Positions 420-23,025 of a stretch of DNA of 33,912 bases are shown here, piece by piece. The DNA is taken from positions 1 to 33,912 of IMG/VR virus record IMGVR_UViG_3300025889_000473. The stretch is one strand, 5' to 3'. Positions within the stretch are counted from its first letter, which is position 1; the number at the start of each line of letters is the position of its first letter. Made by a program: the position numbers and the translations under genes. The notes under the pieces are model-generated. The model was not told the DNA's origin. It worked only from the letters and a program-made list of their open reading frames with translations, and ran no database searches. The DNA is from a virus.

Positions 420-928
420 ACTGCATGGCAAAGATCAGCAGACAGGCCCGGCCAGTCCCCCAGGACTTCGAAGTGATCTTCGTGGAAAAGGGCAGGCTCG
501 AATGCGAGACATGGTATCGCGCCCGCCGCACCACCATAACCCGGTGGCTGGAAGAATGCGGAAAGGACAGGCTTATCGACCGCCGCGCATCCTATGTCCG
601 CAGCCTTCGCAGGCAGGGCAAATGGATCACCCGATCTACGGACATGGTGGATCGCCGTGTTCCGAGAAAGACTGTCGCCCAGCGCATCAAGGATGAACGC
701 CGCGCAAGACCTCAGATGGCCCGCCTTGCAGCCGAACACCTGCGCAAGTCCGACAAGTGGGTAATCGTCCGTGTCAGCAACAATGAATGGATCGTGGGAA
801 CCCGCCGCCGTTCATCTGCCGAGGTTATCGAGATGGCTGAGCGAAAAGGCTTCGACCAAAAGGCAGCATGGGCAGAACGCATGAACCTACAGCAGAGCAA
901 CCCTAACGCGGTAAAGGATGGAGGATGA
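416..928 (+). CDS. Basic helix-turn-helix-like phage protein upstream of terminase, 170 aa
   Basis: A 170-residue, Arg/Lys-rich protein. Residues about 12-60 (PVPQDFEVIFVEKG, then TTITRWLEECGKDRL) read like a compact helix-turn-helix of the kind found in small terminase-associated proteins, where a short helix is followed by an RWLxE recognition helix. The rest is mostly basic helices with no motif I recognise. ATG 416 is chosen because it overlaps the stop of the preceding micro-ORF; ATG 425 is an alternative. The stop overlaps the terminase small subunit start as ATGA (925-928). A copy of the GAACCTACAGC late-promoter motif lies in its last codons (883-893). It may cooperate with the small terminase in DNA recognition; this is inference. 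Confidence 0.6.
   Translation: MNCMAKISRQARPVPQDFEVIFVEKGRLECETWYRARRTTITRWLEECGKDRLIDRRASYVRSLRRQGKWITRSTDMVDRRVPRKTVAQRIKDERRARPQMARLAAEHLRKSDKWVIVRVSNNEWIVGTRRRSSAEVIEMAERKGFDQKAAWAERMNLQQSNPNAVKDGG
883..917 (+). promoter_or_regulatory. Late-promoter motif copy 1, ahead of terminase
   Basis: Exact GAACCTACAGC at 883-893, followed after 18 bp by TAAAGG (912-917), a weak -10. The terminase small subunit ATG lies 7 bases further, at 925. This copy is inside the 3' end of the preceding gene and is the poorest -10 of the nine. Unlike the leaderless copies, a GGAGG directly precedes the ATG. Confidence 0.45.
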
Positions 929-1290
929 CACGCACCAAGCGCACAGATCGCGCGCGCGAGACATTCCTCGAAGCCATGCGCGAAACATGCAACGTCTCCC
1001 ATTCGGCGCGGGTGGCGGGGCTTGGGCGTCGAACGGTCTATGAATGGCGCGATGATGATGCGGACTTTAAAGCGGCTTGGGAAGACGCCGAAGAGGAAGC
1101 GGCAGACAGGTTGGAGAAGGTGGCGCGGGATCGTGCGATTGACGGATCTGACCGGATGCTGGAAATTCTGCTGAAGGCGCATCGACCCGAGAAATTTGTT
1201 GAGCGCCTGCGCAGCGAGTTGTCTGGTCCTGGCGGGTCACCACTACAGGTCACGACCATTGAACGCCGTATCATCGATCCTCGCGATTGA
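925..1290 (+). CDS. terS: Terminase small subunit
   Basis: A 121-residue protein. An N-terminal helix-turn-helix (about residues 10-45: FLEAMRETCNVSHSARVAGLGRRTVYEWRDDD) is followed by an acidic helical segment and by a conserved-looking SDRMLEILLKAHRPEKFVERLR block at about 74-95. This layout is typical of the HTH-type small terminase subunit of alphaproteobacterial siphophages, which binds the packaging site and presents it to the large subunit. The start overlaps the previous stop (ATGA), and the 3' end overlaps the likely start of the large subunit. Family assignment is by motif memory, strengthened by position. Confidence 0.85.
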   Translation: MTRTKRTDRARETFLEAMRETCNVSHSARVAGLGRRTVYEWRDDDADFKAAWEDAEEEAADRLEKVARDRAIDGSDRMLEILLKAHRPEKFVERLRSELSGPGGSPLQVTTIERRIIDPRD

Positions 1291-2644
1291 CACACCGCGC
1301 GTATTCGCGCCCCTGCTGAAGCCAAGCCGTTACAAGGGTGCTTATGGTGGCCGTGGCTCTGGTAAATCACATTTCTTCGCGGAGTGCATTGTCGAGGCCA
1401 TGGTGGCAGACCCGAACTGCACCGTGGTCTGCATTCGTGAAATTCAGAAAAGCCTTAAGCTATCCGCAAAGAAACTGATCGAGGATAAGATTGAGGCGTT
1501 CGGCCTTGGGCATATGTTCGAAGTGCAGCGAGACATCATCCTGCGCCGTGGCGGCAAGGGGCTTTGCATCTTCCAAGGTATGCAAGACCACACAGCCGAC
1601 AGCATCAAGTCGCTGGAGGGGTTCGACATCGCATGGGTGGAAGAGGCTCAATCCCTATCGCAGCGGTCCATGAACCTGTTGCGCCCGACGATCCGCAAGG
1701 ACGGTTCGGAAATATGGTTCAGCTGGAATCCCCGCCGCAAGTCAGATCCGGTTGAAAAGCTTCTGCGCGCCCGCACCCGTGATGACGCGATAGTCGTGAA
1801 AGCAAACTATACCGACAACCCATTCCTGCCGGACACGCTGCGGAAGGAGGCCGAAGACGACAAGGCTAATGATCCTGATGGATTTCCGCATACATGGCTG
1901 GGTGATTATGAAAACATGTCCAGCAAGGTGGTCATCCCTCGCATGTGGCTGGAAGCTGCAGTCGGCATTGATAGCGCACTGGGGTTGGAGATCACCGGCA
2001 AGACCTATTCCGCATTGGACGTTGCCGGGGCGGAAGAGGGTGGGGACGAAAATGCCCACGCAGTCCGCAAGGGTATTAAGCTTCTCGCTTTGGAAAAATG
2101 GAACGGGTTCGACACGTCGCAGACCACTCAGAAGGCAGTCGGTCTTAATGTCCAGCATGGCGCGCGTGAAGGCTATTACGACAGCGTCGGGGTGGGCGAG
2201 GGCGTAACCGGCGAATGGGCCTCCATGGGGCGCGAGAGGCGGCGCACAGCGGGTTATGAATTGAAGCCTTGGAATGGCGGGTCTTCGGTTTTGCATCCCG
2301 ACAAGCGCACCGACCCAACCAACGCGAACAGCCCTCTTAACAAGGATCAGTATCACAACCTGAAAGCGCAGGCTTGGTTCGCGCTTCGCCAGCGGTGCCA
2401 GGAATCGTTCAAGGCTTCGAAGGGAGAGGCGTACGATGCGGACAAGCTGTTCTGCATACCGCCCGACCTCCCGTATCTCGACCAATTGCTGGATGAACTG
2501 ACGCAGCCGCATAAGGCGACTTCGGCAACCGGCAAAACGATGGTCGATAAGCAGCCTGAGAACGCATCATCGCCAAACCTCGCTGACGCGGTGGTAATGG
2601 CATTCTTTCCGCTCGAAGGGGCCTACACGCTCGACAATGTCTAG
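1259..2644 (+). CDS. terL: Terminase large subunit (packaging ATPase-nuclease)
   Basis: Motor that drives DNA into the prohead and cuts it. From the chosen start the product is 461 residues. Walker A is GGRGSGKS at about 30-37 and Walker B is IAWVEEA at about 124-130, giving the ATPase half. The C-terminal nuclease half contains ALDVAGAEEGGDENA from about residue 252, with the metal-binding Asp at about 254, and YYDSVGVGEG further on. No ATG lies upstream of the Walker A region, so the start must be unusual. TTG 1259 (LNAVSSILAIDTPRVF) is preferred; TTG 1196 would add 21 unlikely residues, and ATT 1286 is also possible. It overlaps terS by about 30 bases. A promoter motif follows two bases after the stop. 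Confidence 0.93.
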   Translation: MNAVSSILAIDTPRVFAPLLKPSRYKGAYGGRGSGKSHFFAECIVEAMVADPNCTVVCIREIQKSLKLSAKKLIEDKIEAFGLGHMFEVQRDIILRRGGKGLCIFQGMQDHTADSIKSLEGFDIAWVEEAQSLSQRSMNLLRPTIRKDGSEIWFSWNPRRKSDPVEKLLRARTRDDAIVVKANYTDNPFLPDTLRKEAEDDKANDPDGFPHTWLGDYENMSSKVVIPRMWLEAAVGIDSALGLEITGKTYSALDVAGAEEGGDENAHAVRKGIKLLALEKWNGFDTSQTTQKAVGLNVQHGAREGYYDSVGVGEGVTGEWASMGRERRRTAGYELKPWNGGSSVLHPDKRTDPTNANSPLNKDQYHNLKAQAWFALRQRCQESFKASKGEAYDADKLFCIPPDLPYLDQLLDELTQPHKATSATGKTMVDKQPENASSPNLADAVVMAFFPLEGAYTLDNV

Positions 2645-2645
2645 C

Positions 2646-2679
2646 GAACCTACAGCAAGCCCCTGACCCGTCCTAATCT
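2646..2679 (+). promoter_or_regulatory. Late-promoter motif copy 2, leaderless portal start
   Basis: GAACCTACAGC at 2646-2656, a 17-bp spacer, then TAATCT at 2674-2679. The portal ATG is at 2686, six bases after the hexamer. That is where the first transcribed base is expected, and no Shine-Dalgarno sequence is present between. The motif directly follows the terL stop. Confidence 0.75.
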
Positions 2680-2685
2680 GCATCC

Positions 2686-4065
2686 ATGGGCAAAGTGGTG
2701 CAGTTCTTCGACCGGCTTACGAACGTCATGTCCGGTATGGGCACGACCGTCGATAAGCGCACCCACAGCCGCTATCATTTCGTGCCCGTCGATCCCGTCC
2801 AGGTCGAAGCGTCCTACCGCACATCGTGGCTGATGCGGAAGATCGTGGATATTCCCCCGCTCGACATGACCCGCGAATGGCGGTCATGGCAGGCGGACAA
2901 AGACGACATCGAAAAGATCGAGGCCGAGGAAAAGCGGCTTCAGCTAAAGGCCAAGGTCAAGCGCGCTCTGGTGCTGGCCCGCCTGTGGGGCGGTTCTGCC
3001 ATCATCATCGGTTCGGACGGTGAGCCTACCGAGGAACTGCGGCCCAACGCTTCCACGCTCAATTACCTGTATGTGGTCAGCAAGAACCAGCTTTCCTGCG
3101 GACAAGTGATTACCGACATCGCAGACCCGTATTACGGCAAGCCCAGCTATTACGAGGTCGGTTCCGGCAGTGAGCGCGTGTTCCTGCATCCGTCGCGGGT
3201 GGTGGAATTCATCGGTCAGCACGCGCCCGATGGCGGCAATCTCGGTGCTAACGGATTTTGGGGCGACCCGCTGTTCCAGTCGATTGCCGGTGCGGTGTCG
3301 AATGCCGATCTGGCGCAGGACGGATTTGCCTCGCTGATTGACGAAGCGAAGATCGACATCATCAAGATCCCCGACATGATGATGAATATGGGAACGGTCG
3401 AATACGAACAGAAGCTGATGAACCGGCTTGCTGCGGCTAAAATGGGCAAAGGCATACATCGTGCGCTGATCATCGACGGCAACGAGGAATGGGACCAGCG
3501 GACGGTAACGTGGGCGGGCATTCCCGACATCATCAACACCTATCTGCAGATCGTGTCCGGCGCTGCCGACATTCCGGTAACTCGTTTGCTGGGCCAGTCC
3601 CCAAAGGGCCTGCAATCGACCGGCGATGGCGAAGAGCGCGACTATCACGCGATGATCGCCGCCCGTCAGGACGAGATGCTTGCGCCCGCGCTTGACCGGA
3701 TTGACGAGGTGATGATCCGGTCAGCACTTGGGGATCGTCCGTCCGACATCTGGTATAAGTTCAACACGCTGGAACGCCTGTCACCCAAGGACGCGGCAGA
3801 GATCGAGAACAAGCGGGCCGATACGGTCAGCAAGTATTCGATGACCGGCCTGATCGAAGACACCGCCCTGTCTGCCATCGCCAAGAACGCGATCATTGAA
3901 AGCGGGCAATGGCCGGGTTCGGAAGCGGCATTCGAGGAAGCGGATCAAGACCCCGGCGACGAGGGCGATCTGCTGACCGAAGCGGAGCGTTTGGCAGCGA
4001 AAGGAGGCGATCCTAATCTAGTTGGTGCGGGTGGTCCGATTGGAAGCGGGCCACCCGTCCAATGA
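2686..4065 (+). CDS. Portal protein, DUF1073 type
   Basis: A 459-residue portal that forms the dodecameric DNA channel at one head vertex. The N-terminal half has the landmarks of the DUF1073 phage portal family: YRTSWLMRKIVDIPPLDMTREWRSW at about 44-68, ARLWGGSAIIIGSDG at about 98-112, and later SGAADIPVTRLLGQSPKGLQSTGDGEERDYH at about 290-320. The C-terminus is acidic and probably flexible. Pfam has filed this family under the name of the anti-CBASS protein Acb1, but length and location between terminase and minor head protein make portal the correct role. There is no ribosome site; the start is set by promoter copy 2. The stop overlaps a short ORF (ATGA). Confidence 0.9.
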   Translation: MGKVVQFFDRLTNVMSGMGTTVDKRTHSRYHFVPVDPVQVEASYRTSWLMRKIVDIPPLDMTREWRSWQADKDDIEKIEAEEKRLQLKAKVKRALVLARLWGGSAIIIGSDGEPTEELRPNASTLNYLYVVSKNQLSCGQVITDIADPYYGKPSYYEVGSGSERVFLHPSRVVEFIGQHAPDGGNLGANGFWGDPLFQSIAGAVSNADLAQDGFASLIDEAKIDIIKIPDMMMNMGTVEYEQKLMNRLAAAKMGKGIHRALIIDGNEEWDQRTVTWAGIPDIINTYLQIVSGAADIPVTRLLGQSPKGLQSTGDGEERDYHAMIAARQDEMLAPALDRIDEVMIRSALGDRPSDIWYKFNTLERLSPKDAAEIENKRADTVSKYSMTGLIEDTALSAIAKNAIIESGQWPGSEAAFEEADQDPGDEGDLLTEAERLAAKGGDPNLVGAGGPIGSGPPVQ

Positions 4066-4127
4066 CCTACAGGCATTTCTATCGAGACGCCGTGACAGGC
4101 CGGTTCGTATGGCACAATATGACCTAG
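4062..4127 (+). pseudogene. 21-codon ORF, probable remnant of a small phage protein
   Basis: ATG 4062 overlaps the portal stop (ATGA) and encodes MTYRHFYRDAVTGRFVWHNMT, ending TAG 4125-4127. The segment YRDAVTGRFV resembles the N-terminus of a widespread small phage protein that normally continues with an Ala/Asn/Pro/Thr-rich tail. Here it is cut after about 16 recognisable residues and runs into the next gene, whose start lies inside it. It looks like a truncated remnant kept for translational coupling, or a very short peptide. The resemblance is from memory. Confidence 0.35.
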
Positions 4128-4951
4128 CCGCCCTTGCCCGCCGTTCAGGCACCCGCAAGCGCATTACCACATTCCGGCCCATCAAGACCACGCAGGCGCA
4201 GGCAAACGATCTGGCCCGCATCTATCGCGACATCCTGACCCCATGGCTGGACAGCACGGACCGCATTATCGCGCTCTACACCTGCGATCTGGTGACAGAC
4301 AGCCCCGATGACATGGGCAGTCTGTTCGATGCGCTGGGCGAGGAACTGTCCCGGCTTGTGCTTGAACTGACCCCGAACTTGCGAAACTGGGCCTTCAGGA
4401 CCGAACGCTATCATCGCGAGAAGTGGCGATCGGCAGTCCTGGCAGGTGCTTCGGTCGATATCGGCACGCTGATAGGCCCACAGGACGCACAGGAAACGAT
4501 TGCGGCATGGCTGCAAAGAAACGTGGCGCTGGTGAAGGACATCGGCACACAGGCACAGGGGCGAATATCGGATGCAGTGTTTCGGGGCTACCAGCAGCGT
4601 AAGACGGCGGCAGAGGTGGCTAAGGATATTCGCACAGCAACGGGCATGGCCAAACGCAGGGCGAACAATATTGCCTCTGACCAATCCACCAAGCTGGGCG
4701 CGGCGCTGGACGCGGAAAGGCAAAGACAGGCGGGATTGACGATCTGGCGTTGGAATCACAGCGACAAGCGCAACCCACGGCCTGAGCATGTGGCCCGCGA
4801 CGGTAAGCTTTATGGCGACGATGCCGAGGATCGGGGCAAACTGAGCAACGGGACCACCGTATCTGCACCGCCAGCGGATCTACCGAGCGAACTGCCGTGG
4901 TGCGGGTGCAACCGGCAGGGGGTTATGGTGCTGGATGGCGAGGTGATCTAA
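4109..4951 (+). CDS. Minor head protein, phage Mu gpF-like
   Basis: A 280-residue protein. The last ~110 residues carry the Mu F-like domain: RRANNIASDQSTKLGAALDAERQRQAGLTIWRWNHSDKRNPRPEH, then DGKLYGDD and a closing PWCGCNRQGVM. This is the order W-x-W..D.R.R..H..(L/Y).....P..CRC/GC seen in SPP1 gp7/Mu F minor head proteins. The N-terminal part is helical and probably binds the portal. Such proteins are carried in few copies in the capsid and in some phages are ejected with DNA. ATG 4109 (MAQYDLAALARRSG) is preferred; an upstream ATG at 4022 would overlap the portal by more than 40 bases. Confidence 0.88.
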   Translation: MAQYDLAALARRSGTRKRITTFRPIKTTQAQANDLARIYRDILTPWLDSTDRIIALYTCDLVTDSPDDMGSLFDALGEELSRLVLELTPNLRNWAFRTERYHREKWRSAVLAGASVDIGTLIGPQDAQETIAAWLQRNVALVKDIGTQAQGRISDAVFRGYQQRKTAAEVAKDIRTATGMAKRRANNIASDQSTKLGAALDAERQRQAGLTIWRWNHSDKRNPRPEHVARDGKLYGDDAEDRGKLSNGTTVSAPPADLPSELPWCGCNRQGVMVLDGEVI

Positions 4952-4953
4952 GC

Positions 4954-4987
4954 GAACCTACAGCCCCGCACATCGCCCGCATATTAT
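4954..4987 (+). promoter_or_regulatory. Late-promoter motif copy 3, leaderless protease start
   Basis: GAACCTACAGC at 4954-4964, 17-bp spacer, TATTAT at 4982-4987 (five of six matches to TATAAT). ATG 4995 follows after seven bases without a purine-rich ribosome site. The motif lies three bases after the minor head protein stop. Confidence 0.75.
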
Positions 4988-4994
4988 TGCGGGC

Positions 4995-6212
4995 ATGTTT
5001 ACAGACCGCCTCACCCTCGACGGACCCAAGCGCCTCACAGGCGGTTACATGGGCGTTCGCGCCAAAGCGGCCCGTCTCGGCACCTACGATTACCTTGGCA
5101 GGGAGATCGATCCCGAAAACAAGCATGGCCTTCGCGATGCTGGCATGGTCAAGGTGCTGCGCGACGAGGACACGGTGTTCGACCAGACCGCCGCCCGCTC
5201 GTTCATCGGCAAGCCCATCACCGACAATCACCCCGCCGCTGCTGTAACGGCGGATAACTGGCGTCAGCACGCTCGCGGCACGATCATGGGCGCAATGCGG
5301 GAAGGGGACTACCTCGCATTTGATCTGCTTCTGACCGATGCCGACGCGATCAAGAAGATCGAGGCTGGCAAGCGCGAACTGTCCAACGGTTATTCGGCTG
5401 AACTGGAGTTCGGGGATTTCACTGATGCCGATGGCAACAAGTGTGTCGCCCGGCAGACCAAGATATTCGGCAATCACGTTGCCTTGGTCGATAAGGGCAG
5501 GGCAGGGCCAGAGTGCCGGATTGCCGACGCGGCCACCTGCGAGGGCATTCCGCGAATGCTTTTCGATGAGCTGGTCCAGCGAACCTACAGCGATAACGCA
5601 AGTCAAGGTAAAACCGAACCTGCACGCAGCGATGCGTCCGTTTCCCACGAGGGCCAGCCCCTCAAAGATGGAGGAAGCCAAGTGGCGACCAAGACGATCA
5701 CCTTTGATGGAATGCCCATCGAAGCCACCGATGCAGCCGAGGCGGCAATTCGCAAGGTCGAAGGCCAGCGCGATAGTGCCGTCTCGGCCAAGGACGCTGC
5801 AGAAGCAGCCCTTGCCACCGCTCAGACCGAAACCGCCACCAAGGACGCGGAAATCGAGACGCTGAAGAAGCAGATCGAAGACGCGAAACTGACCCCGGCG
5901 CAGCTTCGCGATGCCGCCAAGGAATATGCGACTGTCTGCGACAAGGCTTCGGCACTTGGCGTGAAGTTCGCTGACGACGCGGACATCGAGACGATCCGCA
6001 AGGCGGTGGTCGATGCCAAGATGGGCGAAGCTGCCAAGGATTGGTCGGCTGACCAGATCGCGGCCTCGTTCGCGGTTCTGGCGAAGGACGCCAAGCCCGC
6101 CGACAAGCTGCGCGATGCTTTCGCCTCCCCCGCCCCGCGCATGAATGACGGCGCGGCGATCCATGCGAACGCGCTTGCTGCACGCAACGCTCGCTTCAAC
6201 GCTGTCAACTGA
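4995..6212 (+). CDS. Prohead protease-scaffold polyprotein (DUF2213-like)
   Basis: A 405-residue protein in two parts. Residues 1-180 match DUF2213 phage proteins and show features of the S78/herpesvirus-type prohead protease fold: GKPITDNHP (candidate catalytic His79), GKRELSNGYSAELEFG (candidate catalytic Ser130) and FGNHVALVDKGRAG (His161 region). A linker (about 181-229) is followed by a charged, Ala-rich coiled-coil segment (about 243-300), which fits a scaffold, and a C-terminus ending NALAARNARFNAVN. Maturation cleavage of head proteins by the N-domain and capsid templating by the C-domain are inferred. An internal promoter motif (5581) and an internal ribosome site with GTG (5682) suggest the C-domain is also made alone. 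The start at 4995 is leaderless from promoter copy 3. Confidence 0.8.
   Translation: MFTDRLTLDGPKRLTGGYMGVRAKAARLGTYDYLGREIDPENKHGLRDAGMVKVLRDEDTVFDQTAARSFIGKPITDNHPAAAVTADNWRQHARGTIMGAMREGDYLAFDLLLTDADAIKKIEAGKRELSNGYSAELEFGDFTDADGNKCVARQTKIFGNHVALVDKGRAGPECRIADAATCEGIPRMLFDELVQRTYSDNASQGKTEPARSDASVSHEGQPLKDGGSQVATKTITFDGMPIEATDAAEAAIRKVEGQRDSAVSAKDAAEAALATAQTETATKDAEIETLKKQIEDAKLTPAQLRDAAKEYATVCDKASALGVKFADDADIETIRKAVVDAKMGEAAKDWSADQIAASFAVLAKDAKPADKLRDAFASPAPRMNDGAAIHANALAARNARFNAVN
5581..5614 (+). promoter_or_regulatory. Late-promoter motif copy 4, inside the protease gene
   Basis: GAACCTACAGC at 5581-5591, 17-bp spacer, TAAAAC at 5609-5614. It is the only copy deep inside a gene and lies in the linker between protease and scaffold domains, about 70 bp upstream of the internal scaffold start. 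In frame it encodes part of QRTYSDN, so selection on the protein cannot be excluded. The exact 11-base match and the spacer argue for a promoter. Confidence 0.55.
5682..6212 (+). CDS. Nested in-frame scaffold protein
   Basis: GTG 5682 is in frame with the protease gene and is preceded by GGAGG (5670-5674) at a seven-base spacing, a ribosome site far better than that of the full-length start. It would yield a 176-residue protein beginning (M)ATKTITFDGMPIEATDAAE. A strongly helical, heptad-like region at about 14-75 (QRDSAVSAKDAAEAALATAQ and onward) is typical of phage scaffolds. Lambda Nu3 inside C and herpesvirus UL26.5 inside UL26 have the same architecture. The nested start is seen in sequence; separate expression is inferred. 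Confidence 0.6.
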   Translation: MATKTITFDGMPIEATDAAEAAIRKVEGQRDSAVSAKDAAEAALATAQTETATKDAEIETLKKQIEDAKLTPAQLRDAAKEYATVCDKASALGVKFADDADIETIRKAVVDAKMGEAAKDWSADQIAASFAVLAKDAKPADKLRDAFASPAPRMNDGAAIHANALAARNARFNAVN

Positions 6213-6225
6213 GAAGGGCTGACCA

Positions 6226-6681
6226 ATGGCTGAAGTTCAGACCACCTACACCACGGACATCCCGGTCGGCTTTGCTGGCATGGTTGCCAACGGTGAAACC
6301 TCCAACCGCCTGACCCGCACTGTCGAGACTGCCGCTGGCATCGGCTTCGGCAAGGCCGTGTTCCGTGGCACGGGCGATCATGGTGTGACCGCCACCGCTG
6401 CTGCGAATACGTTCATGGGCATCACCATCGCCAAGACCGATCAGCCGCTGACCGCCTCGCGCGATGCGGATGAATACGCACAGTATGACAGCGCGGCCAT
6501 CCTGAACGAGGGTGTGATCTGGGTTGTCGCTGGCGAGGCCGTCACTGACGGGGCGGCGGCTTATGTGACCAGCGGCGGGGCCATCGTGGACACCGCGACT
6601 GACAACGTCGCCATTCCGGCAGTTTTCGACGGCACCGCTGCAAGTGGCGCGCTTGTCCGTCTGCGCGTCCTGCGTTCGTAA
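6226..6681 (+). CDS. Capsid decoration/stabilising protein, DUF2190-like
   Basis: A 151-residue beta-rich, Ala/Thr/Gly-rich protein located between the scaffold and the major capsid gene, where DUF2190 or head-decoration proteins normally sit. Recognisable points are PVGFAGMVANGET near the N-terminus, a central MGITIAKTD, and EGVIWVVAGEAVTDGAAAYV at about 93-112, the pattern of a small beta-sandwich. It probably binds the outside of the expanded capsid. A GAAGG ribosome site lies upstream of ATG 6226. Family assignment is by pattern and position. Confidence 0.75.
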   Translation: MAEVQTTYTTDIPVGFAGMVANGETSNRLTRTVETAAGIGFGKAVFRGTGDHGVTATAAANTFMGITIAKTDQPLTASRDADEYAQYDSAAILNEGVIWVVAGEAVTDGAAAYVTSGGAIVDTATDNVAIPAVFDGTAASGALVRLRVLRS

Positions 6682-6694
6682 GGAGGGATTACAA

Positions 6695-7705: not shown

Positions 7706-7881
7706 TGGCTGAGTTCACCAACACCGCGAAGGGCCTTCGTGGCATCAACATGAAGAACGGCGAAACGATCTTCATCGGTGCAGGTGAAACGATGACCGTG
7801 GACAAGCGGCAGGTTGCCAATGTTCACGAGGACATCACCGAGGCCAAGGAAGCCAAGAAGGCTGACAAGGCCGACGACTGA
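7705..7881 (+). CDS. Small head protein, 58 aa
   Basis: A 58-residue protein starting MAEFTNTAKGLRGINMKNGETIFIGAGETMTV and ending in a Lys/Asp-rich tail (AKKADKADD). The ATG overlaps the capsid stop (TGATG at 7703-7707), so it is coupled to capsid translation. The short beta-rich core with a charged tail is typical of small proteins that follow the capsid gene in this phage type, but I cannot name a function. A terminator follows 27 bases downstream, so it is the last gene of the head transcription unit. Confidence 0.75.
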   Translation: MAEFTNTAKGLRGINMKNGETIFIGAGETMTVDKRQVANVHEDITEAKEAKKADKADD

Positions 7882-7907
7882 CCCCCAGCGCCTCCACGCT
7901 GACGAGA

Positions 7908-7933
7908 GGGCCATCCTTCGGGGTGGCCCTTTT
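7908..7933 (+). terminator. Rho-independent terminator after the head module
   Basis: A nine-base-pair stem (GGGCCATCC with GGGTGGCCC, one G-U pair) closes a TTCG tetraloop at 7917-7920 and is followed by TTTT at 7930-7933. It lies between the small head gene and promoter copy 5, and would insulate the head genes from the connector/tail genes. It is the only convincing intrinsic terminator in the window. Confidence 0.88.
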
Positions 7934-7938
7934 GCGTT

Positions 7939-7972
7939 GAACCTACAGCGAATACGGATGCGCCCGTAATAT
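7939..7972 (+). promoter_or_regulatory. Late-promoter motif copy 5, leaderless connector start
   Basis: GAACCTACAGC at 7939-7949, 17-bp spacer, TAATAT at 7967-7972. ATG 7979 follows after six bases with no ribosome site. It begins five bases after the T-run of the terminator. A back-to-back terminator and promoter is the strongest positional evidence that the motif is a promoter. Confidence 0.8.
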
Positions 7973-7978
7973 CGCGGC

Positions 7979-9784: not shown

Positions 9785-9787
9785 ATC

Positions 9788-10066: not shown

Positions 10067-10071
10067 CGACA

Positions 10072-10467: not shown

Positions 10468-10468
10468 C

Positions 10469-10502
10469 GAACCTACAGCCAAATGCCACGAAGGATTATG
10501 GT
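10469..10502 (+). promoter_or_regulatory. Late-promoter motif copy 6, ahead of tail tube gene
   Basis: GAACCTACAGC at 10469-10479, 17-bp spacer, TATGGT at 10497-10502. The expected start of transcription (about 10509) leaves a 47-base leader before the tail tube ATG 10556, which has its own GGAG site at 10545-10548. This copy would thus give a conventional leadered mRNA for an abundant protein. Confidence 0.65.
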
Positions 10503-10555
10503 GGCCCTGACAAGCCCGCTGTGAAGCGGTGCGTCCCGATGATGGAGATTCTTGA

Positions 10556-11008
10556 ATGGCGCAGCCCGACATTATCCGCGGCACTTATTTCGCCCTGTCG
10601 ATGGGCGATGGTGAGGTAAGCGAAACCTTCACGCCGCTGTGCGGTATCAACACCCGTTCGTTCACCCAGCAGGCGAACACTTCAGACACCTTCATTCGCG
10701 ATTGCGCCGATCCTGAAGATGTTCCGATCCGCCGCCTGATCGTGACCGGCAAGCAATGGTCGCTGTCGGGCGAAGGTCAGTTGAACCGTGCGCAGCTGGA
10801 TGACATCACCACCGCGTTCGGCGTGACCAAGAATTATCGCTTCATCTTCACGGAGCCGAGCGACGACGAGGTGTTCCAGGGCTATTTCGAAGGCCCCGCC
10901 ATTCTCGTCAATCAGGCCATTACCGGCGGCGATGAAGAATACGCCACGATGTCGCTTCAGTTCGAAAGCGATGGCGAATGGACATGGACGACCGTGACGC
11001 CCGCCTGA
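10556..11008 (+). CDS. Major tail tube protein
   Basis: A 150-residue protein. Landmarks are MAQPDIIRGTYFALSMGDGEVSETFTPLCGINTRSFTQQANTSDTFIRDCADP at the N-terminus and QALITGG-like VNQAITGGDEEYATMSLQFESDGEWTW at the C-terminus, a pattern typical of tail tube proteins of alphaproteobacterial siphophages. It polymerises into the tube around the tape measure. GGAG precedes the ATG. The stop overlaps the chaperone start (TGATG). Confidence 0.88.
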   Translation: MAQPDIIRGTYFALSMGDGEVSETFTPLCGINTRSFTQQANTSDTFIRDCADPEDVPIRRLIVTGKQWSLSGEGQLNRAQLDDITTAFGVTKNYRFIFTEPSDDEVFQGYFEGPAILVNQAITGGDEEYATMSLQFESDGEWTWTTVTPA

Positions 11009-11445: not shown

Positions 11446-11465
11446 TTCTAGCGAACTGTGCGCGG

Positions 11466-11639
11466 ATGAACGTTCCGCCCAGCGAGGCCAAGGCGCTTTC
11501 CTATTACGAATATCACCAGTTGCTCCATAACTGGAATAAGGGCGAAGGCGGGGACGACATCAAGGCCCCCGATGCTGCCACCACGCAGCGCATTCTCGAC
11601 AAGATCGCTGCCGACCCGCGCCTGACCAAAGCAGCCTGA
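11466..11639 (+). CDS. Tail assembly chaperone, gpT-like C-terminal part
   Basis: From ATG 11466 this is a 57-residue protein (MNVPPSEAKALSYYEYHQLLHNWNKG...), but the same frame is open upstream through TLDFGLVLANCAR. That segment completes the pattern of the second tail chaperone domain (a short helix, then P..A..LS..E...ll..WN). It is -1 relative to the upstream chaperone ORF and is therefore most likely expressed as a frameshift extension. No Shine-Dalgarno site is evident at 11466. Its TGA stop shares bases with promoter copy 7. Confidence 0.65.
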   Translation: MNVPPSEAKALSYYEYHQLLHNWNKGEGGDDIKAPDAATTQRILDKIAADPRLTKAA

Positions 11640-11671
11640 ACCTACAGCGCAAATCACCGCCCCCGTAATCT
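11638..11671 (+). promoter_or_regulatory. Late-promoter motif copy 7, leaderless tape measure start
   Basis: GAACCTACAGC at 11638-11648, 17-bp spacer, TAATCT at 11666-11671, then ATG 11678 after six bases with no ribosome site. The -10 and geometry are identical to copy 2. The motif overlaps the upstream TGA. Confidence 0.78.
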
Positions 11672-16065: not shown

Positions 16066-16925
16066 CATACGAAGCCTTCGAAGAAAGCCGCGACGATGGC
16101 GGACCGGTGCAATGCTTCCTGTTTCGCTATGGAACCGAGGCAGGCGAATATTACGCCTACACCGCGCACACCGATGCAATCACGATCGACCATGGCGGCT
16201 CTGTCGGAGAGATCACGTATGTGCCGGTGCCTATCCAGCGCGACGGCATCACCTCGAATGGCACGCTCGACAAGTCATCGCTGAAGCTGGGCATGGACAT
16301 CGGCACGGACCTGTCCGAACTGTTCCGCGTCTATCCACCTTCCAATGTCGTGACGCTGACGATCTACGAAGGCCACATCGACGACGCGGATTCGGAGTTC
16401 GTCGTGGTCTGGGCCGGCCGGGTGGTGACGGTATCGCGCGAGGGCGGGGAACTGGTGCTGTCGGGCGAGCCCGTGTCGACGCAAATGCACAGGCCGGGGC
16501 TTCGCCGGCATTACCAGTATGGATGCCCGCATCAGCTTTACGGGACACAATGCGGGGCGTCGAAGGCCGCGGCAACAGTGTCGGCAACGGTCGCTTCGGT
16601 GTCAGGTTCAACCGTTACGCTGACCGCAGGGTGGGAGGGTTCATTCACGGCGGCCAAGTTCCTGCGCGGCATGCTGGAATGGACGCCTTCAGGTTCATCG
16701 ATTGAGCGCCGCACGATCGTTCGAGTTTCGGGCGATACCCTGACGCTATCCGGCATCCCCAAGGGTCTGGCTGCGGCTGACGATGTCGACGTCGTGCTGG
16801 GCTGCAATCACAAGGCCTTCGCGCCGTCGGGGGACTGCGAAGCGCTTCATGACAACGTGATCAACTTCGGCGGGCAACCGTGGATCCCGATCAAGAATGT
16901 CATCAACACTAACCCGTATTATTGA
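16062..16925 (+). CDS. Tail protein, phage BR0599/DUF2163-like
   Basis: A 287-residue protein. The N-terminal half has PVQCFLFRYGTEAGEYYAYTAHTDAITIDHGG and an IQRDGITSNGTLDKSSLKLGMD segment. Residues 145-160 contain LRRHYQYGCPHQLYGTQCGASK, and the end is VLGCNHKAFAPSGDCEALHDNVINFGGQPWIPIKNVINTNPYY. The conserved cysteines and the C..DC...NFGG.PWIP.KN ending are typical of the BR0599 family, with the possibility that the Cys residues bind iron or zinc at the tail tip. It precedes the small membrane-like and tip proteins in the usual order. Confidence 0.85.
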   Translation: MTYEAFEESRDDGGPVQCFLFRYGTEAGEYYAYTAHTDAITIDHGGSVGEITYVPVPIQRDGITSNGTLDKSSLKLGMDIGTDLSELFRVYPPSNVVTLTIYEGHIDDADSEFVVVWAGRVVTVSREGGELVLSGEPVSTQMHRPGLRRHYQYGCPHQLYGTQCGASKAAATVSATVASVSGSTVTLTAGWEGSFTAAKFLRGMLEWTPSGSSIERRTIVRVSGDTLTLSGIPKGLAAADDVDVVLGCNHKAFAPSGDCEALHDNVINFGGQPWIPIKNVINTNPYY

Positions 16926-16934
16926 GGTGGCCTG

Positions 16935-17162
16935 ATGGCTTGGTGGCTCATTGTCGTAGCGGCGGTCGTATCGGTTGGGGTTTCTCTTCTTCTCGCACCC
17001 AAGATCAAGACGCCAAAGCCGGACGCGGTCAAGGATCTGGAAGACCCGACAGCCGAGGCTGGCCGACCAATCCCGGTGGTGTTCGGCACGATGACGGTCA
17101 AGGGCCTGAACCTGCTGTGGTACGGCGAGAAGAGCAAGCGGACGTCGAAGGTTAAAGCCTGA
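16935..17162 (+). CDS. Small tail-tip assembly protein with N-terminal membrane segment, 75 aa
   Basis: A 75-residue protein with one hydrophobic helix at about residues 3-21 (WWLIVVAAVVSVGVSLLLA), then PKIKTPKPDAVKDLEDPTAEAGRPIPVVFGTMTVKGLNLLWYGEKSK. The second half resembles the start of siphophage tip proteins (GRPIPVVFGT..v.gpnllwyGd), which in many phages lies in a separate small gene before the tip gene. Likely a tail tip assembly factor. GAGG lies ten bases upstream. Its TGA overlaps promoter copy 8. Confidence 0.75.
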   Translation: MAWWLIVVAAVVSVGVSLLLAPKIKTPKPDAVKDLEDPTAEAGRPIPVVFGTMTVKGLNLLWYGEKSKRTSKVKA

Positions 17163-17194
17163 ACCTACAGCCCAATACCCGCCAGTCCTAGCAT
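17161..17194 (+). promoter_or_regulatory. Late-promoter motif copy 8, ahead of tail tip genes
   Basis: GAACCTACAGC at 17161-17171, 17-bp spacer, TAGCAT at 17189-17194. Transcription would start near 17201, leaving a leader of about 33 bases before ATG 17235, which has an AAAGG site at 17230-17234. This copy therefore would not be leaderless. Confidence 0.65.
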
Positions 17195-17234
17195 CGTCCG
17201 TAGATAAGCGAGCGAGACCGGACGACCTAAAGGC

Positions 17235-17429
17235 ATGGACCTCATCATCACCATGGATGACTGCATCAAGGCGGGTCATTGCCCGACCGGCGTGCGCAGG
17301 TGGTTTCACGATCACGATCTCGATTTCCCCCGCTTCATGAAGCACGGCATCCCCGCCGACCAGATGCTCGCCACCGGGGATGCGCAAGGCCAGCAGGTCG
17401 TAGAACGGACGATTGCGCGCCGTGGGTAA
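17235..17429 (+). CDS. Small conserved phage protein in tail-tip region, 64 aa
   Basis: A 64-residue protein (MDLIITMDDCIKAGHCPTGVRRWFHDHDLDFPRFMKHGIPADQMLATGDAQGQQVVERTIARRG). Small proteins with the same plan (an initial short beta strand, a Cys-containing turn, R.wF..H.lD...f...GIpa..l.atGDa...rvv) are common in alphaproteobacterial prophages next to tail genes. Function is unknown. Its 3' end overlaps the next start by eight bases. Confidence 0.65.
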   Translation: MDLIITMDDCIKAGHCPTGVRRWFHDHDLDFPRFMKHGIPADQMLATGDAQGQQVVERTIARRG

Positions 17430-20328
17430 GTCGAAATCGCCAAAGGTCGAGGTCACCGAATACAGCATGTCCGAGCATTTCGGTATTTGTTCCGGGCCTA
17501 TCGACGCGCTCTTGAGCATCATCATCAAGGAAAAGACGGCCTGGACCGGTGAACTGATCGAGCAGGCATCTTTCAATATCGACCAACCCGAACTGTTCGG
17601 CGGCATCAAGAAAGAGGGCGGACTGGTCGGGAAAGTACACTTTTTCCGCGGCGAGAGTTCGCAACTTCTGACCGATAATCTGGCCCAGAAACTTGGGCGC
17701 CCTGATGGTGCGAGCTGCCCTGCGTTTCGAGGACTTGCCAGCCTGTTCTTCTACGGCAAGACCGGGAACGAGGGTTTCCTCTGGTCTGCCAACACGCCTT
17801 TCCTGCCCGGCGTCTGGGCCAAGGTGCGCCGCAAGCCTGTCGGGCTCAATCCTGATTATGCCCTGATCGTCGAAGGTGAGCGCGAGCCGCGGGCGATCTG
17901 CTTTGCGATCGATCTGTCCACGTCAATGAACGATAACGACAGGCTGACCATCCTCAAGTCTGCGATGTCGTCCGTGCTGAACCTGATCAAGGCCAGCGTC
18001 GAGAGCGGTGTCGAGATCGACTTGTCCGTGGTGACATTCGGGTCGCCTAGTCAGACCATTACACGCCGAAGCGCGGATGGTTCTGATGTGGACGCCGTTA
18101 ATAGCTGGGTTCAATCGCGCATCGCGAATGCCACTGACACGGACTTCCGCGCTGGCATGAACAGCGCCAAAGCCTTCTTTGACGCGACTGACGCGGCCAT
18201 TACTGACCGTTTCCTGTTTTTCATAACTGATGGCGGACCTTCAGTTGTTTCCGGCGCAACGCCAACCGAAATCGCTGAGCAGGCTGGCGCAATACTCGCT
18301 ACCATGGGCGCCATACAGTCCTTCGGTATCAACATCGACCTGACGGACACTTCTTACACTGAGGAGGTCGACAATACCCCGAGCGATGGCGTGCCCGTCG
18401 TCGACGATGGCGACGAAGCAGGTCTTACGAACGCCGTTACCAATGCGCTCTATCCTGACGCAGTCACTGGCAACGCGAACCCCGCGCATATCATCTACGA
18501 GTGTCTGACAAACACCAATTGGGGCATGGGCTCCCCTACCGCCGCGATTGATTACGACAGCTTCGACGACGCGAGCCTTGTCCTTTATGCCGAGGCGTTC
18601 GGCCTTTCGATGATCTGGACGCGGCAGGCATCGATTCAGGACTTTGTGCAAGAGGTACTGGATCATATTCAAGGGGTGCTGTTCGTCGATCCGTCGACCG
18701 GGTTGCTCACCCTGAAACTGATCCGCGGCGATTACGATGCAGAGACGCTGCCGGTCATCGATCCCGACAACGCAGACCTGACATCGTTCTCGCGCAAGCT
18801 GTGGGGCGACATCGTCAACGAGATCGTCGTCACCTGGACGAACCCGGAGAACGAACAGGAAGAAACGATTACCGCGCAGGATCTGGCGTCCATTGCGACC
18901 CAAGGCGCAATCGTATCGGATGGCCGGAACTACTACGGCGTTCGCAGCGCGCGTCTGGCGCAGGATCTGGCCTATCGGGACTTGCGTTCTGCGGGTCAGC
19001 CGTTGGCGACATGCGAAGCCGAAGTGGACCGCACGCAATGGCGCCTGCGGCCTGCATCGGTGCTGAAGGTCACATGGCCCGAATATGGCATTTCCGAACT
19101 GGTCATGCGGGTGACATCGATCGATTACGGCAAGCCCGGCGACCCGACGATCAAACTTTCGCTGATGGAAGATGTGTACGGTCTGGACGTAGGTTCCTAT
19201 GATGCACCGCCGACGACAGAATGGGTTGACCCGACATCCGAGCCGACACCGATTGAGACGGTCGAGATATTCACCCTGCCGCTGTTCCTCGCAGCTGACA
19301 CGACGGTGGCGGCATTCGTTGACAGTCCCGAATATCCCGAAGTGCTGGCGGGCATTCTGGCGACAACCGACAACACCGATACGTTCGAATATGAACTGTG
19401 GGATGATGTCACGCTGGCAAACGGCGATACGTCTTCGGAATCCATTGCGACGAACAACATCATCGGGCGCGGCGAACTGGCAGCCGATCTCGACGCAGAG
19501 GCTTTGTCAGCGGCGGTCAGCTTTGACAGTATCGTGGGGCAGACATTCCCGACCGTAGGCGGCTTTGCAATCATCGGGGAAGATGGCGAGGCCGGGAACG
19601 AGATCGTCCTCATCGATACCGGCGATTACGACCTGATCCGTGGCGTTCTCGATACGGTCCCCCGCGCTTGGCCGGCAGGAACGCCAGTCTGGTTCGTGGA
19701 CGGCTCAACTCTATTCGAAGATCCTCTCGTTCGATCGGCAGGCGAGACAGTCGATTACAAGCTCCTGCCGCGCACCTCGCAGGGTCTTCTCCCGTATGGA
19801 ACCGCGCCATTCGAAAGCGCGACCCTGACCGAAAGGCCATGGCTGCCGAATAGGCCAGCGAATGTGCAGGTCAATGGGGTCGGGTGGTCTTCGCCGTCAG
19901 ACGTCATCAACGCAGTAGGAGCGACGGTCACCGTCATTTGGGCGAACCGTAACCGACTAATGGAAGACAGCCAGGTTCTTTCATGGACCGATAGCACCAT
20001 GACACCGGAGGCGGGTCAAACCACCCTGATTGAGGTGCTGGATCCCGACGAGAACCTGCTTACCACGCATTCGGGTCTGACGGGCACGACGTTTGTTGTT
20101 CCTGGGCCGGACTATGACGGGATCGTTCGGCTGCGTGTGTGGTCGGAACGAACCGATGACGACGGCTACTTTCAGAGCCTTCAGTATTTCGAGCATTGGG
20201 TGCTTGTTGCCACCTCCACCTTGTTGGCGACACCTGATGACGAACTCAATGAGCCGCAATTCATCCTTCTGTCCGGCGATGCGACCGACGGGGATGACAA
20301 GATCGAACTCTCAGGAGACGCAGCGTAA
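17422..20328 (+). CDS. Tail tip host-specificity protein with inserted von Willebrand A domain
   Basis: A 968-residue tip protein. Residues 1-150 and 353 onward are the conserved siphophage tip scaffold: YSMSEHFGICSGPIDALLSIIIKEKTAW, then NPAHIIYECLTNTNWGMG at about 353-370, SFSRKLWGDIVNEIVVTW, and LRPASVLKVTWPEYGISELVMRV. Between them, about residues 157-345 form a von Willebrand A domain: AICFAIDLSTSMNDNDR with the MIDAS DxSxS at 164-168, a central TDTDFRAGM (about 238-246), and FLFFITDGGP with Asp270. The rest contains fibronectin-like beta modules. GTG 17422 is chosen; TTG 17413 is possible. The tip probably contacts the host receptor, and the A domain may bind metal-dependently to a surface ligand (inference). 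Confidence 0.88.
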   Translation: MGKSKSPKVEVTEYSMSEHFGICSGPIDALLSIIIKEKTAWTGELIEQASFNIDQPELFGGIKKEGGLVGKVHFFRGESSQLLTDNLAQKLGRPDGASCPAFRGLASLFFYGKTGNEGFLWSANTPFLPGVWAKVRRKPVGLNPDYALIVEGEREPRAICFAIDLSTSMNDNDRLTILKSAMSSVLNLIKASVESGVEIDLSVVTFGSPSQTITRRSADGSDVDAVNSWVQSRIANATDTDFRAGMNSAKAFFDATDAAITDRFLFFITDGGPSVVSGATPTEIAEQAGAILATMGAIQSFGINIDLTDTSYTEEVDNTPSDGVPVVDDGDEAGLTNAVTNALYPDAVTGNANPAHIIYECLTNTNWGMGSPTAAIDYDSFDDASLVLYAEAFGLSMIWTRQASIQDFVQEVLDHIQGVLFVDPSTGLLTLKLIRGDYDAETLPVIDPDNADLTSFSRKLWGDIVNEIVVTWTNPENEQEETITAQDLASIATQGAIVSDGRNYYGVRSARLAQDLAYRDLRSAGQPLATCEAEVDRTQWRLRPASVLKVTWPEYGISELVMRVTSIDYGKPGDPTIKLSLMEDVYGLDVGSYDAPPTTEWVDPTSEPTPIETVEIFTLPLFLAADTTVAAFVDSPEYPEVLAGILATTDNTDTFEYELWDDVTLANGDTSSESIATNNIIGRGELAADLDAEALSAAVSFDSIVGQTFPTVGGFAIIGEDGEAGNEIVLIDTGDYDLIRGVLDTVPRAWPAGTPVWFVDGSTLFEDPLVRSAGETVDYKLLPRTSQGLLPYGTAPFESATLTERPWLPNRPANVQVNGVGWSSPSDVINAVGATVTVIWANRNRLMEDSQVLSWTDSTMTPEAGQTTLIEVLDPDENLLTTHSGLTGTTFVVPGPDYDGIVRLRVWSERTDDDGYFQSLQYFEHWVLVATSTLLATPDDELNEPQFILLSGDATDGDDKIELSGDAA

Positions 20329-20924
20329 TGGCTAACAAGCAAATTAGCGAACTCACCGCCGTTGGCGGGATGGACGGGACCGAACTGTTTCACTTGATCG
20401 ACGCCAGCGGAAACAGCCGCAAGGTGACGCTTGATGAATTGAAGACGTTCGTGAACACCGATCCCAGTATCGTGTCGTCTAGCGCCCCGTATCGTGGTGC
20501 AAGAGCCTATCGCACGGCAAACCTCAATATTTCAAACGGGGTTTCTACCGCAATCTCATGGATGAGCGATGCCGCTCCGGATGGTAGGGACACGGACGGT
20601 ATCTGGAATATCGGCTCGCCTAATCGACTGGTCGTGCCCACTGGCGTAACGAAAGTTCGATTGGCTGCGAACCTATCGTGGGCGAACAATTCCACGGGCT
20701 TTCGTTCTACGTGGATGATGAAAAACGGCGCTACGTTCCATGGTCGGCCGCTCGACGTGCGTGTCGGTAACAGTACCACCTCGCTCAACATTGCGACTGC
20801 GGTGGTTGATGTGACGAGCGGCGATTATTTCGAACTATGGGTCTATCAGAACAGCGGCAGCACTCTCGCCTTGTCGGCGACTCAAGATATGTGGTTCGCC
20901 ATGGACATCGTTGAGGCAAGCTGA
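20328..20924 (+). CDS. Tail fibre/appendage protein, 198 aa
   Basis: A 198-residue protein. The N-terminus (MANKQISELTAVGGMDGTELFHLIDASGNSRKVTLDELKTFV) is the short attachment module found at the start of many phage fibre proteins (isqL...tg.d...vvd.g.tkkvtl.el). Residues about 55-198 are beta-rich with a jelly-roll look resembling C1q/TNF-like fibre heads (VTKVRLAANLSWANNSTGFRSTWMMKNG, ending SGDYFELWVYQNSGSTLALSATQDMWFAMDIVEAS). A receptor-contacting role is inferred. AGGAG precedes the ATG; the stop overlaps the protease start (TGATG). Confidence 0.72.
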   Translation: MANKQISELTAVGGMDGTELFHLIDASGNSRKVTLDELKTFVNTDPSIVSSSAPYRGARAYRTANLNISNGVSTAISWMSDAAPDGRDTDGIWNIGSPNRLVVPTGVTKVRLAANLSWANNSTGFRSTWMMKNGATFHGRPLDVRVGNSTTSLNIATAVVDVTSGDYFELWVYQNSGSTLALSATQDMWFAMDIVEAS

Positions 20925-22075
20925 TGGGAACGCTGATTGTCATTGCCGAGGGGCAGGACCGAGACCAGTTCATCGCCGCGCTTGGCTCGGTCAAATACGA
21001 AACGTTCAGCGCGTTGCCGCGCCATTTCCGCCTACCCAGCGTACAGCCCGAACAACTCCCACCGCTACCTGGGGTTGAAATCGCCGAGCGAGACGACATC
21101 CCGGTGAAAGGAACGGCGGATCAGTCCATCTCGATTGCAGCGGACATGACCGGCGGGAATTGGGGTCTCGTCCGACTGCTTAGGAGGCGTGCGCCTTGGA
21201 ACGTGGACCGGCTTGATTACAGTTTCCCGATCGACACGTTTTACCGGCCTAATAGGATCGGGACCGGTGTGGACATTTACTCATTTGATTCCGGCGTTCG
21301 GTTGACCCATTCAGAGTTCGGCGGCCGCGCTTCGAACGTCTACGAGTATTATTCCAGCGGCGGTGCTGGCGACGACTTCGGGCACGGGACCGGTACGATG
21401 AGCGTTGCCGCAGGATCTACAATGGGGCCGGCTAGAGGTGCCAGCATTCGATCTTACAAATGCATCAACGGAGGGGGCGCTGGCGATAACACCGCGTTCA
21501 TCACCACATTCAATCAGGCCCTCAGCGATTTTAACGCGCGGTCGAAACCGGCGGTTGCAAATATGTCGCTGAAAACAACCGGCGCCGTCATTAATTCCGC
21601 CATTTCAGACATGATCAATGCCGGAATGGTTGTTTGCGCCTCAGCTGGGAATGACATCGAAGATTTGGCTTCGATCGCCGTGTATCCCGCCGAGAGTGAT
21701 GCAGAAGTAATTGTCTGCGGCGGAATCGGCCCTGACGATAGACCGTATTACGAGTGGGGTTTCGGGACCAACTACGGATCACGGGTGGACGTGTCTTCGG
21801 CTGGCCAATCGGTTTACGGTGCAACACGGACCAGCGACACAGCTGTACGTATTTGGTCAGGTACTAGCTTCGCCGCCCCCATGGTAGCTGGCGTGATCGC
21901 TTGTCTCCTAGAGGGTGAAGCAAAACTGACCACCCGCGCACAGGTGCAGACCGTGCGTAACTATATCAGGAATACGGCAACGACTGGCAGACTGCGAAAC
22001 ACTATCCCGATAGACGCTTTGCCTGATCGCATCCTCTACCTCGATCCGACATTCACGGGATCGATTTTTTCCTGA
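20924..22075 (+). CDS. Subtilisin-like serine protease (S8 family) in the tail module
   Basis: A 383-residue S8 protease with an intact triad: Asp122 in VDIYSFDSGV, His154 in DDFGHGTGTMSVAAG, Ser315 in GTSFAAPMVAGVIA, and the oxyanion-hole Asn243 in ASAGNDIED. About 100 residues precede the catalytic core and could act as a propeptide or virion-attachment domain. No signal peptide is visible, so it should act inside the cell, in the virion, or after lysis. It is translationally coupled to the fibre gene (TGATG, GAGG upstream), suggesting a virion protein that digests host surface proteins or processes the fibre. Its last 40 bases overlap the convergent hydroxylase gene. Confidence 0.88.
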   Translation: MGTLIVIAEGQDRDQFIAALGSVKYETFSALPRHFRLPSVQPEQLPPLPGVEIAERDDIPVKGTADQSISIAADMTGGNWGLVRLLRRRAPWNVDRLDYSFPIDTFYRPNRIGTGVDIYSFDSGVRLTHSEFGGRASNVYEYYSSGGAGDDFGHGTGTMSVAAGSTMGPARGASIRSYKCINGGGAGDNTAFITTFNQALSDFNARSKPAVANMSLKTTGAVINSAISDMINAGMVVCASAGNDIEDLASIAVYPAESDAEVIVCGGIGPDDRPYYEWGFGTNYGSRVDVSSAGQSVYGATRTSDTAVRIWSGTSFAAPMVAGVIACLLEGEAKLTTRAQVQTVRNYIRNTATTGRLRNTIPIDALPDRILYLDPTFTGSIFS

Positions 22076-22866
22076 TCGGTGGCACGGCGGCCCTCACTCC
22101 GACGGAAGGGCAGGGTTAAGTATTCCCATACCGAGGTCGGCGGACCGTGTTCGTCTATGCCGACATCGGGCCATTCATCTCGGCGCGGGAAGTACGCGGT
22201 GCCGAACATCTTGTCCCAAACTAGCGTGAGCGAGCCGAAATTCCTGTCAAAGTGTTCTGGCTCTCGCGAGTGGTGAATCCGATGAGTTCGCGGATCTCCG
22301 ATAAGCCAAGCACCTCGACCGAGCGAAATGCTTGTGCTCGAATGAATGTACGTGCCCTGAAATAGAATGAAGAGCGTAGCGACCACCGCGCCGTTCCATG
22401 CGATGAGATGCGAGAGCGGACCCAGGATGATGATGGCCTTGAAAATCTGTTCGGTGAAATGCCCATAACCGCACGGGACCGAAAGATGGCGAACGGAATG
22501 ATGGACGGCGTGGAAACGCCATAGAAGCGGCAATGTGTGCTGGGCACGATGCACCCAATAATAGAAAAAGTCATACAGGACTATGGCGACAAAAGCTGAT
22601 GCCACGCTTCCGAGTACAGTTCTCGCGTCAAAAACAGGGTCGGGCCGGTAGTCATAGTAGAACAGTAAGGCTTGCAGTACGGCGAGAATATATGCCCCGG
22701 CCATAACCTGTATAAACATAAACCGGAGGCCATCGAGTCGCGCCCGCAAGGGAGCCTGTTCTCCCATTGGCCGAGCAAGCTCCATGGCGAAGACTACCGA
22801 AAAGATGCCGCACAGCAGAGCGAATTGTATAGCCGTAGATACAGCGATAGATGTGATCACAGTCAT
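22036..22866 (-). CDS. Fatty-acid hydroxylase/sterol desaturase-like membrane enzyme (moron)
   Basis: An integral membrane diiron enzyme of about 276 residues. The histidine boxes are clear: DFFYYWVHRAQH, FHAVHHSVRH and HRIHHSREPEHFDRNFG, the pattern of the fatty acid hydroxylase/sterol desaturase/carotenoid hydroxylase superfamily. Hydrophobic helices lie at about 6-30, 50-70 and 85-105, with another between the second and third boxes. It would oxidise a lipid or carotenoid of the host membrane. It is the only minus-strand gene in the late region, looks less GC-rich than its neighbours, and has no phage structural role, all typical of a lysogenic-conversion cargo gene. ATG 22866 follows GGGGCGGG; ATG 22881 is an alternative. 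Substrate unknown. Confidence 0.85.
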   Translation of the reverse strand: MTVITSIAVSTAIQFALLCGIFSVVFAMELARPMGEQAPLRARLDGLRFMFIQVMAGAYILAVLQALLFYYDYRPDPVFDARTVLGSVASAFVAIVLYDFFYYWVHRAQHTLPLLWRFHAVHHSVRHLSVPCGYGHFTEQIFKAIIILGPLSHLIAWNGAVVATLFILFQGTYIHSSTSISLGRGAWLIGDPRTHRIHHSREPEHFDRNFGSLTLVWDKMFGTAYFPRRDEWPDVGIDEHGPPTSVWEYLTLPFRRSEGRRATDQEKIDPVNVGSR

Positions 22867-22925
22867 TTGCCCGCCCCGCATGGTTTCATATCGACGGTAT
22901 CGGGCGCAATTGTTAAGAAAGCAAT

Positions 22926-22940
22926 ATCAAGCCGCTTGAT
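22926..22940. promoter_or_regulatory. 15-bp palindrome upstream of the hydroxylase gene (operator-like)
   Basis: ATCAAGC, one base, GCTTGAT: a perfect seven-base inverted repeat with a single central base, located about 60 bp upstream of the minus-strand hydroxylase start and 50 bp upstream of promoter copy 9. There is no T-run, so it is not a terminator. A dimeric repressor or regulator could bind here. Confidence 0.4.
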
Positions 22941-22991
22941 GCTTCATAGTGGCGCATAGCCGCTCAATGCCCCGTCCGTAGCGGACACCCC

Positions 22992-23025
22992 GAACCTACA
23001 GCCAATGTCCCCAAGACCGTAACTT
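22992..23025 (+). promoter_or_regulatory. Late-promoter motif copy 9, ahead of the lysis operon
   Basis: GAACCTACAGC at 22992-23002, 17-bp spacer, TAACTT at 23020-23025. Transcription would start near 23032-23033; ATG 23036 of a 17-codon ORF follows within a few bases. It is the last copy in the window, so all coupled genes from 23036 to 29586 appear to depend on it. Confidence 0.7.

Follow-up and report, generated by a model that had tools for sequence, protein, structure and literature searches.

A Repeated Late-Region Box and a Candidate Phage-Encoded Activator Predicted for a Probable Temperate Phage

What reads a DNA element that recurs, without a single change, nine times along the late region of one phage? 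The window analyzed here is a stretch of 33,912 nucleotides (IMG/VR record IMGVR_UViG_3300025889_000473). Its late module, which runs from terminase to lysis on the plus strand, holds nine exact copies of GAACCTACAGC that begin at positions 883, 2646, 4954, 5581, 7939, 10469, 11638, 17161, and 22992, all on the plus (late) strand. By chance 0.01 copies are expected, and nine were reached in none of 100 shuffles. The preliminary description of this DNA had reported nine identical 11-mers, and their number, coordinates, strand, and position in the late region were borne out, as was the longer match to AGCGAACCTACAGC in the four copies at 2646, 4954, 5581, and 10469. When up to two mismatches were allowed, the additional sites in the window were single and scattered.

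At eight sites the box is followed, after exactly 17 bp, by a hexamer that begins with TA. The spacers and hexamers reported earlier were reproduced in full: 17 bp to TAATCT, TATTAT, TAAAAC, TAATAT, TATGGT, TAATCT, TAGCAT, and TAACTT, and 18 bp to TAAAGG at position 883. With the first base of the hexamer set as −12, the box occupies −40 to −30 at the eight sites with the 17 bp spacer and places TACAGC at −35, and at 883 it is found one base further upstream. No TTGACA-like −35 hexamer was found at any of the nine window sites. An ECF-type −35 element (GGAAC) was rejected because the spacing is incompatible.

The reading that we favor, with a probability of about 0.75, is that the nine sites are the late promoters of a temperate phage, at which the box would be bound by a putative phage helix-turn-helix (HTH) protein encoded at 416–928 that recruits the host RNA polymerase. 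The boxes, their spacing, the start-codon geometry, the homology of the HTH proteins, and the covariation of box and HTH type are drawn from sequence, and from these we infer the binding, the sigma contact, the start sites, and the timing.

The same arrangement was found in other phages. A scan of IMG/VR with the pattern box-N17-TANNNT-N4-8-ATG returned 64 stretches; those with multiple copies are GC-rich (~0.61–0.68), and the low-GC stretches are single-copy and were taken as chance. The preliminary description had proposed searching related phages for the box, 17 bp, and TANNNT ahead of matching genes, and this combination is present, often in several copies, in GC-rich phage contigs. In 20 chosen IMG/VR records all boxes lie on one strand per record. 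One-base variants of the box also exist, several of them ahead of the same kinds of gene. Among 53 distinct exact boxes taken from the window together with 11 retrieved records, which were collected without a requirement for TA or ATG from records themselves found by a pattern containing both, TA was found at the 17 bp spacing in 49 of 53, and no other spacer tested gave TA in more than 3 of 53. The TATAAT-like hexamer at a fixed place fits a sigma70-type −10 element. No relatives were confirmed by means of the major capsid protein, and a literature search for the boxes returned no relevant paper by title.

The box might also be read by a sigma factor or regulator of the host, and the use of a −10-like hexamer makes the participation of the host polymerase probable. 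As the reader of the box, a host protein is nevertheless considered very unlikely. A scan of 84,980 species genomes with box-N17-TAWNYT-ATG gave 32 stretches with one match each, mostly from unrelated phyla, so that host genomes were set aside as carriers by this pattern and the matches were taken as chance. In addition, different boxes are used in phages of what is apparently one host order.

The positions of the nine predicted promoters relative to the annotated genes (names from Pfam; the endolysin from a sub-threshold NCBIfam match) reveal a second regularity that was absent from the preliminary description. At 883, 2646, 4954, 7939, and 11638 an ATG is found 40–42 nt from the start of the box, which corresponds to predicted +1 to +3. 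The first promoter (box 883–893, 18 bp, TAAAGG at 912–917) overlaps the 3′ end of the candidate activator gene, where the box codes for its MNLQQ, and lies upstream of the terminase genes, with the ATG at 925 at approximately predicted +2. A similar overlap with the end of the HTH gene is found in relatives, where the C-terminus reads NLQ in HTH proteins of the same type as in the window and TLTAV in several of the second type described below. The promoter at 2646–2679 (box 2646–2656, TAATCT) places the portal ATG (2686) at predicted +1, that at 4954–4987 (TATTAT) places the ATG of the protease (DUF2213; 4995) at predicted +2, and those at 7939–7972 (TAATAT) and 11638–11671 (TAATCT) place the ATGs of the DUF4054 gene (7979) and the tape measure gene (11678) at predicted +1. 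The remaining sites lack an ATG nearby and keep the TA spacing. The promoter at 10469–10502 (TATGGT) would give a leader of ~50 nt ahead of the tail tube gene at 10556; that at 17161–17194 (TAGCAT) is upstream of 17235 and of the tail protein gene at 17422; that at 22992–23025 (TAACTT) precedes the lysis region (23086 onward; endolysin-like 23767–24372); and that at 5581–5614 (TAAAAC) is within the protease gene. Each of these eight has the 17 bp spacer, and all nine lie on the plus strand.

Since an ATG is found at an offset of 40–42 nt in 30 of the 53 distinct exact boxes, many of the late mRNAs are predicted from sequence to be leaderless. The same number could mean that the box is an RNA-level signal for translation or processing held at a fixed distance from the ATG. 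This explanation is extremely improbable: the TA spacing found in 49 of 53 copies extends to the window sites at 5581, 10469, 17161, and 22992, where no ATG occurs at that distance, and the predicted transcription start is downstream of the box. The prediction that many late mRNAs should be leaderless is reasonable because such transcripts occur in the alphaproteobacteria, with 171 in S. meliloti (PMC3616915).

The internal promoter at 5581, which was also not part of the preliminary description with its nested in-frame start, is followed by GGAGG and an in-frame GTG at 5682. These signals predict a nested product (5682–6212, plus strand) that comprises the C-terminal part of the protease open reading frame. 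A box inside the protease gene is also found in G009, G012, G014, and L168, and a Shine-Dalgarno-like sequence with an in-frame GTG or ATG follows the internal promoter in the window and in G009, G012, and G014. In phage lambda an in-frame internal start within the protease gene C makes the scaffold (Nu3), and by analogy the nested product described here is probably a scaffold. Unlike the lambda case, the nested start is predicted to be driven by a copy of the late box, which would yield this product separately from the full protease.

The protein proposed to read the boxes is 170 residues long and is encoded on the plus strand at 416–928 (start at 416, or upstream at 272), directly ahead of the gene for the terminase small subunit. 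In an all-against-all comparison, the box-bearing phages whose sequence extends over this region had the HTH gene directly ahead of their terminase genes, and a profile scan found 20 loci for it. The AlphaFold2 model of the protein predicts a four-helix HTH domain (residues 18–67; helices 18–25, 27–34, 38–48, and 50–67) with pLDDT of ~97 over the HTH, and the model of the HTH protein from the second class of phages described below is confident in the core and low in confidence overall. Foldseek with the HTH model returned weak matches only, the best of which is a viral transcription-regulator-like protein (E 0.06). The protein had no family match in Pfam, PHROG, NCBIfam, or the PDB, and the gene had no match in a search of phage records. 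Plasmids of Enterobacter and Citrobacter gave a weak match that was taken as unrelated. Among the proteins examined, which constitute a partial survey, neither a dedicated sigma factor nor a dedicated RNA polymerase was found. The earlier suggestion of phage-specific late promoters with an activator overlapping −35 is well supported, whereas its proposal of a partner encoded outside the window is not, since the strongest candidate, the HTH protein of 416–928, is encoded within it and is of a type that covaries with the box. Two side observations were made: at L176 (924–1379) the HTH core motif is apparently duplicated within one protein, and phage G014 encodes a protein (L138:559–1470) that matches GP88 and whose N-terminus is GcrA-like at a sub-threshold level.

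A second class of box, here termed B to distinguish it from the A box of the window, was found at the same genes in phages where the HTH protein is of another type. The B box, (A/G)CGGCGG(G/T)AA, is typically 20 bp ahead of TA, and its hexamer is looser, with TA at that spacing in 24 of 39. It is carried by prophages in host genomes and by phage Yong-M3-232 (OM868076). Homologues of the HTH protein were found in 5 of the 401 genomes of the bacterial order reached via an attP-like tmRNA end; three of these (G861, G971, and G979) are prophages in which the head genes are related, the HTH protein is of a different type, and TGACGGCGGTAA is the box found at the corresponding genes. A first phylum sample of 395 genomes had given no HTH match, and the order of 10 genomes reached from it by the tmRNA route gave none either. 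B-type prophages are represented by the IMG/VR records 2915128050_000001, 2731957634_000001, and 2900186868_000002, which probably derive from isolate genomes. Each of ten IMG/VR loci with a B-type HTH protein has at least one B box, that of L213 being doubtful, and the A-type phage G014 has one incidental match to the B box. OM868076 contains no exact A box and carries GGCGGGAA at 40–43 bp ahead of five annotated starts. The A- and B-type HTH proteins are homologous (hhalign 98%, E 3e-14), as are the B-type protein and that of OM868076 (97%, E 1e-10), the typing of the latter resting on hhalign and position because the protein is short and its branch very long. The open reading frame at 42061 of OM868076 was rejected as an HTH homologue. 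Its match is confined to the additional N-terminal domain of G009, and the 69-residue open reading frame at 43079–43288 is the better counterpart. In G009 the HTH domain is fused to this N-terminal domain (18538–19617), which is a separate nearby gene in OM868076.

Box and HTH type change together. With HTH types assigned by hand from sequence and from the box present at each locus, a strict A promoter was found at 15 of 20 A-type loci, and all 11 B-type loci have a B box and lack an A promoter. Among the five A-type loci without a strict A promoter, L162 and L163 have one-base box variants, L176 has two copies of its own 11-mer, GAACCTAACCG, each with an 18 bp spacer, and in L161 and L174 less than 3 kb of sequence follows the HTH gene. 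At L168 GAACCTA is kept and the right half of the box is varied. L172 and L173 combine an A-type HTH protein with an A-like box, GGACCTAAGYC-N17-TA, in which the hexamer is TATAAT itself; the late genes of L172 are mostly unrelated, and its other matches are to early genes only, plus the terminase at 30% identity. The box class changes once on the HTH tree (100/99), four times on that of the large terminase, and twice on that of the major capsid protein.

The HTH gene is not the sole correlate of box class, because by nearest neighbor the portal and minor-head genes segregate with it as well. Because the window is a fragment, further regulators may be absent from it, and a different phage protein, for example from the missing early region, might read the boxes while the HTH protein merely travels along. 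We regard this as unlikely, since the remaining shared nonstructural genes annotated in G014, where the early proteins are partly annotated, are RecT, a YqaJ recombinase, and an AAA protein, and the HTH protein is the candidate for DNA binding at the boundary of the late module. The collective comparison points to a family of phage-encoded late activators with a switchable promoter specificity, for which the binding and the start sites are predicted.

In the mechanism that we propose, the HTH protein would be made ahead of the late phase and would bind the box at −40 to −30 in place of the absent host −35 element. It would then recruit the host RNA polymerase with the housekeeping sigma factor, which would contact the TANNNT-like −10 hexamer, and transcripts would start at many of the ATGs or within 1–2 nt of them, or further upstream where the leader is longer. 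In related phages the box and the protein would have changed specificity together. A bolder version, in which the HTH protein replaces sigma region 4 at −35 and defines a phage promoter class whose specificities are interchangeable (GAACCTACAGC versus ACGGCGGTAA) and whose late mRNAs are mostly leaderless, is offered only tentatively.

Phage activators of this general kind are known. P2 Ogr and Mu C/Mor are phage-encoded and turn on several late promoters in which a good −35 element is missing, which is the role envisaged for the HTH protein. They differ from it in that the Ogr/Delta, Mor, CII, Q, and GcrA families were not listed for 18 HTH family members (Pfam-A, E ≤0.5, where the HMMER filters may drop very weak matches), and in that the site here is a single nonpalindromic 11-mer overlapping −35. 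Lambda CII is likewise a phage HTH activator that functions at the −35 region with host sigma70; its direct repeats flank −35 at early promoters, whereas one box is found here, at late promoters. Caulobacter GafY (which functions with GafZ; GafA in Rhodobacter) is described as an alphaproteobacterial phage-type regulator of ~18 accessory promoters and of the GTA cluster promoter, whose −35 is degenerate; it contacts domains 3–4 of RpoD, binds at −123 to −113, and needs IHF (PMC11150451). The HTH protein, set beside GafY by description only, would similarly be a phage-type regulator at many promoters, but the GafY site is far upstream and the box here is at −40 to −30 with a fixed spacing.

The HTH protein might instead function mainly as an antiterminator loaded at each promoter, like lambda Q or GafZ, and not as an activator of initiation. 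Its gene is just upstream of the late module, the first box overlaps the 3′ end of that gene, and Caulobacter GafZ binds between −10 and −35 (PMC11150451). However, nine promoters, mostly near gene starts and without a −35 element, fit the control of initiation, and the box stands in for −35 and is not located between −35 and −10. Antitermination as the main function is quite unlikely. The preferred reading, in which the HTH protein activates initiation, offers a promoter code and a regulator, both open to testing, for late transcription in a group of temperate phages that are probably alphaproteobacterial, and this regulator matches no family searched. Leaderless late transcripts and a nested product with a promoter of its own are predicted, and the protein-box pairs form a natural series that could show how the specificity of such a protein changes.

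The host of the phage is probably a member of the Sphingomonadales, as suggested by the tmRNA route and by an integrase whose only plasmid match is from Sphingomonas. A partial tmRNA 3′ end at 31482–31551 adjoins the integrase gene and is probably the attP site, and the Sphingomonas plasmid prophage, as read from its annotation table, carries a related integrase. Two phages labeled as Synechococcus phages (L106 and L107) resemble prophages of the order reached by the tmRNA route, as seen for L106, and the host label may be wrong. The phage tail protein encoded at 17422–20328 of the window contains a von Willebrand A domain, and a subtilisin-like serine protease is encoded in the tail region at 20924–22075. 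Between the tail and lysis genes, a lipid-hydroxylase-like gene on the minus strand (22036–22881), with a sub-threshold match to the ornithine lipid hydroxylase OlsE, is possibly cargo.
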